Shown: positions 27,529-45,542 of the stretch, piece after piece | Layout of the letters: the number at the start of each line of letters is the position of its first letter | Position numbering within the stretch: position 1 is the first letter of the stretch | Origin: Candidatus Latescibacterota bacterium | GTDB lineage: Bacteria > Latescibacterota > UBA2968 > UBA8231 | Reading direction: 5' to 3' | NCBI GenBank assembly: GCA_022820485.1 | Contig: JAJEFJ010000011.1 | Span: forward strand, 1-64,000 | Length of the DNA stretch: 64,000 nucleotides | The notes under the pieces: generated by a model | Told to the model about the DNA's origin: nothing | Database searches by the model: none | Seen by the model: only the letters and a program-made list of their open reading frames with translations | Translations under genes and position numbers: made by a program

Positions 27529-28590
27529 TTACGGCTCGACGAGGATGCGGCCGGGATTTTCTTCGGTTACCTCGCCGACGAGGGCGGCAGCGTCTAGTTG
27601 GAGGGCGTGGAGGAGGGCTTCGGCCTCGGCTGCGGCTACGGCGATGAGCAGGCCGCCGGAGGTCTGGGCGTCGAAGAGGAGATTGGCACGGGCCGGATCG
27701 ACGCCGTCGGCGACGGTGACTTTGGGTTCCAAGAAGAGCTGGTTGTCGCGGGAGCCGCCTTCGAGTCCTTTGGCGGCTAGCGCCAAGCTGTGCGCTAGGG
27801 CCGGAACTTGGGCCGCGTAAAAAATCATTCCCACTTGGCTGCCTTCGGCCATTTCCGCGGCGTGTCCCAAAAGGCCGAAGCCGGTGATGTCAGTACAGGC
27901 GTGGACGGCGAAGTCCGGCAGGATTTCGGCACCTGCCTTGTTGAGCGCAAGCATGGATTCCACGGCCTCGGCGAGGTCGGCTTCGGCGAGGTGATCGGCC
28001 TTGAAGGCGTTGGCGATTAGTCCGGTGCCCAGTTTCTTGGTGAGGATGAGGCGGTCGCCGGGCTGGGCACCGGCGTTGGTGTAGATGCGGTCGGGGTGGA
28101 CGAGACCGGTGACGGCGAGGCCGTATTTTAGTTCGGGGTCTTGGACGGTGTGGCCGCCGACGAGTGTGCAGCCGGCTTCGGCAGCCTTGGACTGACCGCC
28201 GAGGAGAATCTGGTTGAGGACCTCTGGATCAAGGTCGTTGGCGGGAAAACCCGCGATGTTGAGCGCGGTAAGCGGTTTGCCGCCCATGGCGTACACGTCG
28301 CTGAGCGAGTTGGCCGCGGCAATGGCTCCAAAGGTGTAGGGATCATCGACGATGGGGGTGAAAAAATCGACGGTTTGCACGAGAGCCTCGCGCTCGTTGA
28401 GGCGATAGACGCCGGCGTCGTCGGCGAGGCTGAAGCCGACGAGCAGGTTGGGATCGGTGTTTGCTGGCAGACCTGCCAGGGCGCGCCGCAACTGGTCGGG
28501 GCGCAGCTTGGAAGCTCAGCCGCCGCAGGCGACCATTTGCGTCAGGCGCTTGGTCTTTTTATAGGTGAATATCTTTTGCCAACGATTCAT
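27529..28590 (-). CDS. selD: Selenide, water dikinase SelD, itself a selenoprotein (in-frame UGA)
   Basis: SelD makes selenophosphate from selenide and ATP for selenocysteine and selenouridine synthesis. Reading through a TGA at 28516-28518 gives 353 residues starting MNRWQKIFTYKKTKRLTQ. The UGA codon (residue 25) falls in RLTQMVACGG-U-ASK, exactly where E. coli SelD has catalytic Cys17 (RLTQYSHGAGCGCK). The rest is a complete SelD: FSLADDAGVY, VQTVDFFTPIVDDP, NSLSDVYAMGG, GHTVQDPELKYGLAV and TSGGLLIA. Stopping at the UGA and restarting at the TTG at 28491 would delete the active site. A hairpin directly follows the UGA. No strong ribosome site precedes the ATG. The dispersed repeat at 28604 is 14 bp upstream. 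Confidence 0.92.
28483..28518 (-). promoter_or_regulatory. Probable bacterial SECIS hairpin of selD
   Basis: Eleven nt after the UGA, GCGCC (28504-28500) pairs with GGCGC (28487-28483). Inside, CGA pairs with UUG around a CCAG loop, with one C-C mismatch. Position and size fit a bacterial SECIS recognised by SelB. Confidence 0.65.
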
Positions 28591-39837: not shown

Positions 39838-41618
39838 GAGCGGCCGTAGTTGAGGCGGTAGAGGCGTGCGTAGATGCCGTCTTGGAGCAGCAGATCTTCA
39901 TGGCGGCCTCGCTCGCGCACCTCGCCGCGGTGCATCACCAAGATCTGGTCGGCACTGCGGATGGTGGAGAGGCGGTGGGCGATGACGATGGAAGTGCGCT
40001 CGCTCATCAGCTTGGCGATGGCGTCTTGGATGAGCTGTTCGGTCTCGGTGTCGATGCTGGAAGTGGCCTCGTCGAGGACGAGGATTGCCGGGTCGAAGGC
40101 GAGGGCGCGGGCAAAGGCCAATAGCTGGCGCTGGCCGGCCGACAGGGTCGAGCCGCCTTCGGCTACGGGGTGGGCAAAGCCTTGGGGGAGGCGTTCGATG
40201 AAGGGCGCGGCGTTGACGTAGCGGGCCGCGCGCTCGACTTGGGCGTCGTCGATGGCGTCGTCGCCGAGGCGGATGTTGCCGCTGATATTCCCAGAAAATA
40301 AGAAGACCTCCTGCTGGACGATGCTGATGCGGCGGCGCAATTCGGCCGCGTGCCACTGGCGCACGTCGCGGCCATCGACGAGGATTTCCCCGCGCTGGAT
40401 GTCGTAGAAGCGGCAGAGGAGGCTGACGATGGTGGTCTTGCCCGAGCCGGTGGCCCCGACCAGCGCCAAGCTCTGCCCGGCCCGTAGTTCAAACGAGACA
40501 TCCTTGAGGATCCAGTCTTCGGCTGCTGGATCGTATTTAAAGAACACGTTGCGGAATTCAATCTGTCCGCCGCGGCTGGTCACGGGCAGATTGCGCTGCG
40601 GTCCGCCGGTGAGTTCGCTGGGGACGGCCAACATCTCGAAGATGCGCTCGGATGCAGCCATGGCGCTCTGCAGCAGGGCATAGCGGTCGGAGATGTCCAT
40701 GATCGGGCGAAAGAAGCGGCGGATGTATTGGAGAAAGGCCACCAACACCCCTAACTCGATGCGGCCGTCGATCACGTCCGAGGCCCCGTACCACAGCACC
40801 AGCACCATGCCGACCGTGCCGAGTAATTCGGTGAAGGGGAAGAAGATGGCATAGAAGTGGATTTCGCGGTCTTCGGCGCGGCGATAGGGCAGGTGCTCGG
40901 CGTCGAAGTCGCGCAAATTGCGCTGCTGGCGGTTGAAAAGTTGCACCACCTCCATGCCGGTAATGTTTTCCTGCAAATAGGCATTGAGCCGCGCCAAGCG
41001 CGTGCGCAACTCGCGATAGGCGCGTATGGCGAGGCCCTGGAGGTAGAAGGTCGAGACGCCGATGACCGGGACCACTGTGCAGCAGATCAGGGCCAGCTCA
41101 AAGTCGATATAGGCCATGAAGCCGACGATGGCCAGCAAAGTGAAAAAATCCATGAAAACCGAGACGACGCCCTCGCTGAAAAACTCGTTGAGGGCGTCGA
41201 TGTCGTTGGTGGCGCGGGTCATAATCCGGCCCAGCGGCGTGCGGTCGAAGTAGCGCAGCGGCAGCTTTTGCAGGTGGGCAAATAGGTCGCGGCGCATGTC
41301 GTACATGACGCGCTGACCGATCATGCCGGTGACCAAGGTCTGGGCGTATTGAGCGCCGTACTGCACGGCGACGCTGCCAAAAAAGGCCGCGATCATCCAC
41401 CGCAGCCCCGCCCAGTCGCCAACGGCGATGTGGTCGTCAACCGCGACCTGCGTGATATAGGGCCCGACTTGGCCGAAGCCGGCGGCGAGGACAATGGTGC
41501 CAAAGGCGAGGATCACATGCCCTCGGTGGGGCTTGAGATACCCCAACAGTTGCAGCGTCAGCCCCAAATTGAAGGCGCGTTGCTGGATTTCTTCTTCTTG
41601 GTTGAGTTCGGTGCTCAC
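39834..41618 (-). CDS. Heterodimeric ABC exporter subunit with canonical catalytic site
   Basis: The 594 residues have six predicted helices then an ATPase: Walker A GATGSGKTTI, Walker B ILVLDEATSSID with the catalytic Glu, H-loop IAHRLSTI. The signature reads LSAGQRQ rather than LSGGQ. In exporters such as TM287/288 the degenerate site combines a weak signature from one subunit with a non-catalytic Walker B from the other, exactly the pattern seen with the partner gene at 41615. The genes overlap by ATGA. It is probably a multidrug or lipid exporter. Confidence 0.92.
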   Translation of the reverse strand: MSTELNQEEEIQQRAFNLGLTLQLLGYLKPHRGHVILAFGTIVLAAGFGQVGPYITQVAVDDHIAVGDWAGLRWMIAAFFGSVAVQYGAQYAQTLVTGMIGQRVMYDMRRDLFAHLQKLPLRYFDRTPLGRIMTRATNDIDALNEFFSEGVVSVFMDFFTLLAIVGFMAYIDFELALICCTVVPVIGVSTFYLQGLAIRAYRELRTRLARLNAYLQENITGMEVVQLFNRQQRNLRDFDAEHLPYRRAEDREIHFYAIFFPFTELLGTVGMVLVLWYGASDVIDGRIELGVLVAFLQYIRRFFRPIMDISDRYALLQSAMAASERIFEMLAVPSELTGGPQRNLPVTSRGGQIEFRNVFFKYDPAAEDWILKDVSFELRAGQSLALVGATGSGKTTIVSLLCRFYDIQRGEILVDGRDVRQWHAAELRRRISIVQQEVFLFSGNISGNIRLGDDAIDDAQVERAARYVNAAPFIERLPQGFAHPVAEGGSTLSAGQRQLLAFARALAFDPAILVLDEATSSIDTETEQLIQDAIAKLMSERTSIVIAHRLSTIRSADQILVMHRGEVRERGRHEDLLLQDGIYARLYRLNYGRS

Positions 41619-43399
41619 AGCGTTTCTAGTTCGGCGCTAAGCTGCTGGTGCTGGTACAGCTCGGCGTAGAAGCCGCCGCTGTTGACCAACTCGGCGTGGG
41701 TGCCCAGTTCGGCGATGCGACCGTCTTCGAGCACGGCGATGCGATCAGCGTGGCGCAGGGTCGAGATGCGGTGGGCGATGATGAGGGTGGTGCGGCCCTG
41801 CATGAGGGCGTGCAAATGGTCGAGGATGGCTTCTTCGGTATGGGTATCCACTGCGGCGAGCGCATCGTCGAGGATGAGGATCTGCGGGCGGCGAATGAGC
41901 GCGCGGGCCAAGGTCGCGCGCTGCTTTTGGCCGCCGGACAGGGTGACGCCGCGCTCGCCGATGAGGGTGTCGAAGCCTTCGTCGAACTGGTCGATGTCCT
42001 TTTTGAGCTGGGCCTCTTCGGCCACGGCGTGGATCTGGGTCTCCTCAGCCGCGTCCACGCCGTAGGCGAGATTGGCGCTGAGGGTATTGGAAAACAGAAA
42101 GGGGTTTTGCGGGACGTAGCCGATGGCGTCGCGCAAAGTCGCTAGGGGCCATTCCTCGATTGGCACCCCGTCGATGAGGAGTTGGCCTGGTCCGGCTTGA
42201 ATCAAGCGCGGCACCAAGCGCGCTAGGGTCGTCTTGCCAGAGCCGACGCGGCCGATGATTCCGAGCGTCGTGCCTTGGGGAATTTCGAGATCGATCTGAT
42301 GCAGGACTTGCTCTTCGCCGTAGGAAAAGCTGAGCTTGCGGAAGGCGATGTGCCCGGCGATTGGCTGCGGCGTTGCCGGAGGCTGGCTTCGATCTGAGAC
42401 TTCGGCGAGCTCAGTCGAGTCGCTCAGCCCAAGGGCGCGGTCTTGGATCTCAGGCTCGACGGCGAGGATTTCGTTGATGCGCTGCATGGACACGAGGGCG
42501 CGCTGGGCGCGGTCGATGACCCAGCCGATGTACATGATCGGGCGGATGAGCTGGGTCAGGTAGGCGTTGAAGGCCACGAAGGCCCCCAAGCTGAGTTCGC
42601 CGTCAATGACCGCGCGCCCGCCTAGCCACAAATTTAGCCCCAAGCAGAGCGAGGCGATGACGTAGGACAGCGGTCGGTAGTTGGCGCGGGTGCGGATATA
42701 GGCGCGGTTTTTTTCGAGGTACGCCAAGTTGAGCTGGTCGAACGCGGCGTTTTGCGCGGATTCTTGGGTGTATGCCTTGACCACGCGAATGCCGGAGAGG
42801 TTTTCTTGGATGAAGGTGCTGATGCGGCCGAAGTAATCTTGGATGGCCTTGTAGCGGGTGTTGATGACTGCGGCGATGCGGATCATCACGACGCTAAAAA
42901 GCGGCATGGGTATCAGCACCAGTAGAGCTAGCTTCCAGTCGAGCAAGCACATGCAGGCGAGGGTGAAGGTCAGACCCAAGGCGGTATCGACGATGCCGCG
43001 AATGCCATAGATCCAAAAGAGATGCACCGAGTGCAGATCGTTGGTCGCCCGCGCCATGAGATCGCCGGTGCGGCGCTGCTGGTAGTACGACAGTGGCAGC
43101 TTGAGTAGGTGGGCAAAGTACGCGACGCGAATGTCGTATTCGATGCGATTGGCGGCGCGGCCTAAGAATATCCGCATGGCGTAGCCGCACACGGCCACGC
43201 CCAAGGCGTAGGCGAGGATGTAGAAGACATAGGTTGCGACTTCCCCAGAGGCTGTATCCGGCGCTAAAACCGCATCGACGGCATCGCCCACTAGCAGCGG
43301 GATGCGCACAGTCGCCGCCTGCCCCAGCCCAATGCAGAGCGCACCGAGCAGGATGTGACTTCGATAGGGACGGACGTATTGGGAAAACGGACCAAACAT
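41615..43399 (-). CDS. Heterodimeric ABC exporter subunit with degenerate catalytic site
   Basis: The 594-residue half-transporter has Walker A GRVGSGKTTL, a canonical LSGGQKQRATLARA signature, but Walker B ILILDDALAAVD with Asp in place of the catalytic Glu. With its overlapping partner (39834-41618) it would form one active and one degenerate nucleotide site. Its start overlaps the rdgB stop by one base, placing it in the selW-TPR-rdgB operon. The transported substrate is unknown. Confidence 0.92.
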   Translation of the reverse strand: MFGPFSQYVRPYRSHILLGALCIGLGQAATVRIPLLVGDAVDAVLAPDTASGEVATYVFYILAYALGVAVCGYAMRIFLGRAANRIEYDIRVAYFAHLLKLPLSYYQQRRTGDLMARATNDLHSVHLFWIYGIRGIVDTALGLTFTLACMCLLDWKLALLVLIPMPLFSVVMIRIAAVINTRYKAIQDYFGRISTFIQENLSGIRVVKAYTQESAQNAAFDQLNLAYLEKNRAYIRTRANYRPLSYVIASLCLGLNLWLGGRAVIDGELSLGAFVAFNAYLTQLIRPIMYIGWVIDRAQRALVSMQRINEILAVEPEIQDRALGLSDSTELAEVSDRSQPPATPQPIAGHIAFRKLSFSYGEEQVLHQIDLEIPQGTTLGIIGRVGSGKTTLARLVPRLIQAGPGQLLIDGVPIEEWPLATLRDAIGYVPQNPFLFSNTLSANLAYGVDAAEETQIHAVAEEAQLKKDIDQFDEGFDTLIGERGVTLSGGQKQRATLARALIRRPQILILDDALAAVDTHTEEAILDHLHALMQGRTTLIIAHRISTLRHADRIAVLEDGRIAELGTHAELVNSGGFYAELYQHQQLSAELETL

Positions 43400-44007
43400 T
43401 AGCGGGCGAGGGCTAGCTCGGGAAAGGTGCTAGCGAGGAGCGGGCGCATGGCTGCCAGTGCCTCGGCGCGGTGACTGAGGCGGTTTTTTACCTGCGGGTC
43501 GAGCTGGGCCATGGTCTTGGCGTAGGTGGGAACAAAAAAGACCGGATCGTAGCCAAAGCCGTTGGTGCCGGCAGGGGCAGGGGCGATCCGCCCTTCACAC
43601 GTGCCTTCGGCGCGGCACTGGCGGCCATCGGGACTTACGGCGCAAAGGACGCAGCGGAACCTAGCACGGCGCTGCGCTGGCTCGGGATAGGGCGCGAGCT
43701 GGGTGAGTAAGAGCTGGCAGCGGCCAGCGTCGTCGAGGCCGGGGCCGCCGTAGCGAGCCGAGTAGATGCCGGGCGCGCCGGCGAGGGCATCGACCTCGAG
43801 CCCGGAGTCGTCGGCGAGGGCGATCTGGCCGCTGGCCGCGGCATAGGCGCGGGCCTTGAGCTGGGCGTTGGCGGCAAAGGTATGGCCGCTTTCCTCGACG
43901 TCGAGTTCAAGGCCCAACGCGGTCGGCGCGACGACCGCGATATCGGCGAGTAGGGCGCGAACTTCGCGCAGCTTGCCGGCGTTGTTCGAGGCCAGAAGCA
44001 GCGCCAT
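43399..44007 (-). CDS. rdgB: dITP/XTP pyrophosphatase (RdgB/HAM1)
   Basis: Starting at MALLLASNNAGKLREV gives 202 residues. The nucleotide motif SNNAGK, ALADDSGLEVDAL, PGIYSARYGG, NGFGYDPVF and the final NRLSHRAEALA are all conserved. The enzyme removes non-canonical purine triphosphates. It sits 5 bp after the TPR gene and overlaps the ABC gene. A longer N-terminal reading has no family support. Confidence 0.93.
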   Translation of the reverse strand: MALLLASNNAGKLREVRALLADIAVVAPTALGLELDVEESGHTFAANAQLKARAYAAASGQIALADDSGLEVDALAGAPGIYSARYGGPGLDDAGRCQLLLTQLAPYPEPAQRRARFRCVLCAVSPDGRQCRAEGTCEGRIAPAPAGTNGFGYDPVFFVPTYAKTMAQLDPQVKNRLSHRAEALAAMRPLLASTFPELALAR

Positions 44008-44012
44008 TGCGG

Positions 44013-45071
44013 CTATTGGGGCTGCTCGTCGATCTCTGCCAGTTTGCTCGCTGCGTAGTCCTTGTAGCGGCTGTCGTTCACCGCGAGGTTGTACCAGCGC
44101 CGCGCTTCCTTTCGTTGGCCGAGTTGAAAATGCGCGTCGCCCAGCAGCACTTCGGCGGCTCGGTAGTCGGCTTGACAACTCGTGGCGCGCTGGCCGTACT
44201 CAACGGCTTGGCGGAAGTTGCCCATGCCGTAGTGCGCCTCGCCCAGCCGGTAATGCGTCTCGCAGTAGTCTTTGTCTAGATCGGCGGCCTTGTTCAGCGG
44301 GGCAATGGCTTCGTGGAAACGGCCGAGCTGGTTGAGCGCAATGCCGAGCAAGCGCTGCCCTTCGGCGTACGTGTCGTCGATCTTTAGGGCGTTTTGCAAA
44401 AGCGGCACCACGCCCTCTATATCGTCGGTATTGAACTTCACCCGCGCCAAGTCGCCGTACGATTCCATGTACGTGGGGTCGGCCTCTATGGAACGCTGGT
44501 AGGTGACGACGGATTTGCCGTAGTCGCGGTTGAGGCGCTGGATGTCGCCGAGGGCGTTGTAGGGTCTGGCGTCGGTGGGATCGGCTGTTATGGCCTCGGC
44601 ATAGGCCATCGCCGCTTTGTCTTTCTCGCGCAGGCCGCTGTAGGAAAGGCCCATGATGTAGAGCGATTGGGCGTCGAGTACGCCAAGCTCCTGGCTGTCG
44701 GTAAAATAGGTGATGACCTCGTTGTACTTTTTTTGCCGAAAGCTGTTGAGAGCGGCCTTTTTATAGAGTTGAGCTAGGGCCTTGGCGGATTTCTCCGGCT
44801 TGGTGCCGAGGGCATGGGCTGCGGTAAAACTGGCGATGGCTTTGTCGTACTCATTGAGGGCCTTGTAGGAAATGCCGAGGACGTAGTGAGCGTTTCCGTA
44901 GGTAGAATCGACCTCCACGGCCTTTTCTAACTCAATGGCGGCGTTGCGGTAGTTGCCCTTTTTGACCAAGTCGTAGCCTGTGCGGAAGTAGTTGAGGGCT
45001 TCGGGCGATTGGGCGAGGGCTGGGGCACTCAAAAGCGCGAGAGCGAGACTGAGCAAGCGGCAGTACTGCAA
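44013..45071 (-). CDS. Exported TPR-repeat protein
   Basis: The 352 residues have a signal peptide (LLSLALALLSAPALAQ) and about eight tetratricopeptide repeats, for example EALNYFRTGYDLVKKGNYRNAAIELEKAV-type units and GNFRQAVEYGQRA. TPR domains mediate protein contacts in the periplasm. It starts with TTG, 6 nt after a perfect AGGAGG. It follows the SelW-like gene by 43 bp and precedes rdgB by 5 bp. Partners are unknown. Confidence 0.87.
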   Translation of the reverse strand: MQYCRLLSLALALLSAPALAQSPEALNYFRTGYDLVKKGNYRNAAIELEKAVEVDSTYGNAHYVLGISYKALNEYDKAIASFTAAHALGTKPEKSAKALAQLYKKAALNSFRQKKYNEVITYFTDSQELGVLDAQSLYIMGLSYSGLREKDKAAMAYAEAITADPTDARPYNALGDIQRLNRDYGKSVVTYQRSIEADPTYMESYGDLARVKFNTDDIEGVVPLLQNALKIDDTYAEGQRLLGIALNQLGRFHEAIAPLNKAADLDKDYCETHYRLGEAHYGMGNFRQAVEYGQRATSCQADYRAAEVLLGDAHFQLGQRKEARRWYNLAVNDSRYKDYAASKLAEIDEQPQ

Positions 45072-45114: not shown

Positions 45115-45348
45115 TTAGCGGCGGGCGTCGAGTCGGGCCTTGACTTCGCCGTCGTCGGGAAAGCGGCCTTCTTGCAGTTTGGAAAAGATCAGTTCACCAT
45201 TGAGGCTAACTTCAAACCGCCCTCGGTCTGAGGGCACTAGCGAGAAGGCGTCGATGTCGGTCTTGTAGGCGACGAGTAGCTGTTCCGCCAAACTGGCGGC
45301 TCTGGTTTCGTAGCCTCAAGCAGAGCAGTAAATGAGTTCCAAGTTCAC
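45115..45348 (-). CDS. SelW/Rdx-family selenoprotein (CxxU), hidden by an in-frame UGA
   Basis: A GTG start 6 nt after AGGAGG opens a 77-residue frame with TGA as codon 11 (45316-45318), giving NLELIYCSA-U-GYETRAASLAEQLL: the CxxU redox motif of the Rdx (SelW/SelT/SelH) family after the first beta strand. The remainder fits SelW: a long helix, then FSLVPSDRGRFEVSLNGELIFSKLQ and EGRFPDDGEV, where G-x-F-E-V and LIFSK-x2-x-GRFP are family landmarks. The protein is a thioredoxin-like small redox protein. A perfect hairpin follows the UGA. Ending at the UGA would leave a 10-residue peptide, so standard gene calling misses it. It leads the TPR-rdgB-ABC operon. Confidence 0.9.
45285..45318 (-). promoter_or_regulatory. 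Probable bacterial SECIS hairpin of the SelW-like gene
   Basis: Sixteen nt after the UGA, CCGCCA (45299-45294) pairs perfectly with UGGCGG (45290-45285) around a GUU loop. A GU-containing apical loop at this distance is the accepted bacterial SECIS form recognised by SelB. Confidence 0.75.
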
Positions 45349-45542
45349 GGGAAACCTCCTTGGGAATAGGGGTTGAAAAAGTATAAAAGTCCCTAGGCGC
45401 GTTGTCAAAAACGGCAGGCGAGCGCAGTGGACGAGGTTATAGACGGCTCTTATCTTTATCATACATTCTTGAATAAGAATCAGCCTCCGCAAATTCCTTA
45501 GACGGTTCCACCAATATCCACCTCATCAATAGAAAACGCGGT

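Follow-up and report, generated by a model that had tools for sequence, protein, structure and literature searches.

A probable SelW-like selenoprotein gene with a short bacterial SECIS-type hairpin in a Latescibacterota genome

Does a short reading frame interrupted by UGA encode a selenoprotein, or is it a damaged or differently decoded gene? The frame considered here lies in a stretch of 64,000 nt, referred to below as the window, from the draft genome of a Candidatus Latescibacterota bacterium (GCA_022820485.1, contig JAJEFJ010000011.1, positions 1 to 64,000). The original prediction, made from the sequence of the window, was of a hidden SelW-like selenoprotein gene, and this interpretation is supported: the locus is almost certainly a functional selenoprotein gene of the SelW-like (Rdx) family. 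The frame itself, its homology, a complete set of selenocysteine (Sec) genes, a UGA that is conserved, and a downstream hairpin under selection all point to a selenoprotein gene.

The selW-like reading frame

The gene and its signals are arranged as follows.

45115..45348, minus strand: selW-like gene, GTG to TAA, 77 residues, with predicted Sec at residue 11 (CxxU)
45355..45360, minus strand: Shine-Dalgarno sequence AGGAGG, 6 nt upstream of the GTG
45348-45346, minus strand: GTG start codon of the selW-like gene
45316..45318, minus strand: in-frame UGA (predicted Sec) codon, codon 11, in CSAU, at the second redox position of CxxU
45285..45299, minus strand: putative bacterial SECIS-type hairpin CCGCCA-GUU-UGGCGG, starting 16 nt after the UGA; apical loop GUU 22 nt after the UGA
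45117-45115, minus strand: TAA stop codon of the selW-like gene

The coordinates and the 77-codon frame had been given correctly, with the strand unstated; the gene is on the minus strand, and a plus-strand reading of 45115-45348 is broken. The perfect AGGAGG site that had been described is present at 45360-45355, and relatives have similar Shine-Dalgarno sequences. A single UGA lies between the GTG and the TAA. With this UGA read as Sec, the product would be VNLELIYCSAUGYETRAASLAEQLLVAYKTDIDAFSLVPSDRGRFEVSLNGELIFSKLQEGRFPDDGEVKARLDARR, in which the expected FEV..LIFSK..GRFPD tail is found downstream of the UGA in the same frame. Standard ORF calling (table 11, at least 60 aa) gives no ORF at this locus, in agreement with the original prediction that conventional calling would skip the gene.

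Family membership

The read-through protein scores 77 bits against Pfam Rdx (PF10262; cut-off 22.6, E 1.3e-21) and 67.8 bits against TIGR02174 (SelT/SelW/SelH; cut-off 34.2), so the alignment to Rdx/SelW families that had been proposed as a check places it over the cut-off of both models. The score against the Campylobacter-type SelTWH equivalog NF041051 is 77.3 bits, below the cut-off of 88; the selW product is a relative of that equivalog, and lies outside it. Solved Rdx/SelW homologs align across nearly the full length of the protein. CSAU occupies residues 8–11, both redox columns are invariant in the alignment, and the UGA aligns with the second Cys or Sec of the family CxxC/CxxU, where the original prediction had put it. 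By both its model scores and its N-terminal CxxU/CxxC pair, the protein belongs to the Rdx/SelW-like family.

Conservation of the UGA codon

The selW-like gene was found in 44 of the 47 genomes of the class, the window's own included, with UGA in all 44. These orthologs have protein identities of 44–99% and frames that are otherwise open, and those inspected one by one run open both before and after the UGA. A random codon at this position or a broken frame in orthologs had been named as grounds for rejecting the prediction; within the class, the UGA is kept and the frame is intact. Extra stops noted in some relatives (G011, G015, G019–G024) were natural terminators caught by the alignment, and these frames too are unbroken.

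Homologs from named genomes were also compared. UGA is present in all 80 of the loci read, which are the best 80 of 264 and may be biased toward the Sec form. The closest of them carry the title Latescibacterota (in some cases Gemmatimonadetes) and are 64–99% identical; more distant ones come from Poribacteria, Planctomycetota, Chloroflexota, and other groups. Among 386 genomes sampled more widely, UGA is again present in most SelWTH matches. The search for CxxC orthologs suggested with the original prediction yielded about a dozen Cys forms in this sample, all outside the window's class and none within it.

That this gene is a pseudogene, left by a nonsense mutation in a CxxC Rdx gene, is hardly conceivable on these distributions. 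The frame does look broken to a standard gene caller, but every ortholog found in the class shares the UGA, across a wide range of identities and in a frame that is otherwise open, and the class has yielded no Cys form.

Some variant forms were seen among the homologs. One, in a record titled Singulisphaera sp. (L110, 4001-4231), has the sequence YUSMUGY, in which the first Cys position is UGA as well (UxxU); it may carry two Sec residues, or the extra UGA may be a sequencing error. Three others (L032, L036, and L037, family f4, g12) are about 113 residues long, with a Cys-containing C-terminal extension, and their genomes each have a second SelW match.

The hairpin downstream of the UGA

The 6-bp hairpin with a GUU loop, 16 nt past the UGA, was borne out in exact position and sequence. 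As a single sequence, the fold of this region is not unusual (z = -0.20); support for the hairpin comes from comparison of sequences. Among 23 distinct relatives, 97.8% of cells are paired, compared with 21–49% in slid controls, and one stem pair is seen as UA, UG, and CG; further compensated pairs occur across 78 distinct Sec sequences. The inner 5 bp are kept in 66 of these 78, where synonymous recoding expects 5.3–7.5 (5–8 of 78), and for the window gene about 5% of recoding trials yield the stem; because the sequences are phylogenetically related, the shuffle and recoding figures overstate independence. Much less open to this objection is the contrast in codon usage inside and outside the stem. 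The Ser codon in the stem-loop is AGT in 59 of 61 cases (1.07 effective codons), while the Leu codons just past it are free (3.8–4.1 effective codons).

The peptide encoded here, A-(A/V)-S-L-(A/T)-E, is itself conserved, and the hairpin might be a by-product of it rather than a SECIS, with the Sec signal located elsewhere. The ordinary stability of the lone fold would fit such an origin. There is very little chance of it, however, given how far the observed number of stems exceeds that obtained by recoding the same peptides, and given that the choice among synonymous codons hardly varies within the stem-loop and is free past it.

The inner stem is in register in none of 12 Cys homologs. It is in register in three of eight distant Sec homologs, and each of the other five has a stem whose loop falls at +21 or +22 and opens with a G. 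Judged by these comparisons, the hairpin behaves as a bacterial SECIS and is under selection; its position just past the UGA and the G in its small apical loop are those predicted for such an element. A search of the genome with the SECIS model RF00031 gave no match, but likewise gave none in any control genome and is uninformative. Rfam searches of the window found nothing at gathering thresholds, and at the selW locus no more than chance-level matches.

The SelW-like genes of Latescibacterota, Poribacteria, Planctomycetota, and Chloroflexota could conceivably share a family-specific, very short class of SECIS, although this is rather doubtful. Its members would have a 5–6 bp stem closed by CAGUUUG, which is nearly sequence-fixed across phyla even though synonymous sites immediately past it vary freely, and which has no Rfam match in the searches of this window. 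If the class is real, its sequences would be well suited to studying how SelB recognizes a minimal stem.

Selenocysteine machinery and selD

The window's genome (G000) is a draft assembly of 6.26 Mb in 107 contigs, with an estimated contamination of 8%. The bacterial Sec gene set in it is complete: SelA (572 bits), SelB (349 bits), SelC (tRNA-Sec, 69.9 bits, over cut-off, with anticodon TCA by ARAGORN), and SelD (378 bits; its frame contains a single UGA). The gene for the last of these is in the same window, 17 kb from the selW-like gene.

27529..28590, minus strand: selD, selenophosphate synthetase, with an in-frame UGA at 28518-28516 in ACGGUASK

The UGA in ACGGUASK is at the usual Sec position of SelD. 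selD would be the window's second selenoprotein gene, and standard calling truncates it too. About 37 nt downstream of its UGA is a stem, CUGGCA-GGUC-UGCCAG.

SelA is over cut-off in most relatives of the same class. Close relatives without SelA, SelB, or SelC had been put forward as a possible argument against a selenoprotein, and the prediction survives it, with Sec machinery present in its own genome and in relatives. Individual genomes show several combinations. One (G013) is without both SelA and SelW, and another (G014) has SelA and no SelW. A third (G033), 91% complete, has SelW with UGA and no SelA over cut-off, perhaps because of an assembly gap, or else through loss. In a further one (L129, G023:C105), SelW is about 2.4 kb from selA on one contig.

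The internal UGA might also be decoded as an amino acid other than Sec, through a general code change or leaky suppression, and the identity of the inserted residue is indeed judged here from sequence alone. Many selW genes of the class themselves terminate in UGA, so that the codon continues to signal termination in these organisms, and its position decides how it is read. With tRNA-Sec, SelA, SelB, and SelD all present, and a downstream hairpin that UGA forms retain and Cys forms lack, decoding as another residue is highly improbable, and insertion of Sec is the preferred reading.

Gene neighborhood

Downstream of selW, three genes follow on the same strand.

44013..45071, minus strand: TPR-repeat protein, the next gene downstream of selW, adjacent to it in congeners
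43399..44178, minus strand: rdgB/Ham1 family gene, its true start probably near 44010
41615..43399, minus strand: ABC exporter, with transmembrane and ATPase domains

The original prediction had selW heading a TPR-rdgB-ABC exporter operon. This gene order is present in the window and in congeners, being kept in nine of nine close loci (L049–L057), in most of which a divergent HEAT-hisG side adjoins selW; it does not hold beyond the genus, and was absent from all other genera and families tested. Since it is conserved only inside the genus, the neighborhood says little about function. Reading a role for selW from its TPR, rdgB, and exporter neighbors finds no support, as these change outside the genus.

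Proposed function

At codon 11 of selW the ribosome would meet the UGA, and SelB carrying Sec-tRNA-Sec would bind the hairpin 16 nt downstream, within the coding sequence. Sec would then be inserted at the UGA, yielding a thioredoxin-like protein of 77 residues with CxxU as its redox pair. The binding of SelB, the insertion of Sec, and the role of the product are proposed from the established bacterial Sec pathway and from what is known of the SelW family. The product is most likely a small thiol/selenol oxidoreductase with a thioredoxin-like fold, active through the CxxU pair. SelW has been reported to interact with glutathione (PMC1088965).

Comparison with known systems

SelW-like CxxU selenoproteins with a bacterial SECIS were already known by 2005, and the family is not novel. 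In the Sargasso Sea set no other family was as abundant (PMC1088965), and in marine metagenomes they rank among the most abundant selenoproteins (PMC9312934). They are reported to have few or no Cys homologs in Sec-using organisms (PMC1794560). For Latescibacter and selenoproteins, a literature search found no report for the phylum, which is weak evidence of absence. The results correct a gene missed by standard annotation, indicate that SelW-type selenoprotein genes are carried across an entire class of little-known bacteria, here with a Sec-containing SelD nearby, and provide a large and clean collection of sequences for comparing bacterial SECIS elements. The picture of the SelW family is unchanged.

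The closest known system is the bacterial SelW-like selenoprotein (PMC1088965, PMC1794560), whose Sec form predominates in Sec-using bacteria. Family, CxxU pair, in-frame UGA, and small downstream hairpin with an apical-loop G are all the same, and nothing essential differs; the present copy is in a Latescibacterota-type genome. Cys-type Rdx proteins, with solved examples 2fa8 and 2p0g, belong to the same family and are of similar length, but have no UGA, and the Cys homologs tested are without a hairpin in this register. Eukaryotic selenoprotein W also has the Rdx family and CxxU pair in common with the selW product, but is distant in sequence (2npb, E 0.0012). In eukaryotic SELENOW the SECIS is outside the coding region, whereas the hairpin here is inside it, right after the UGA.
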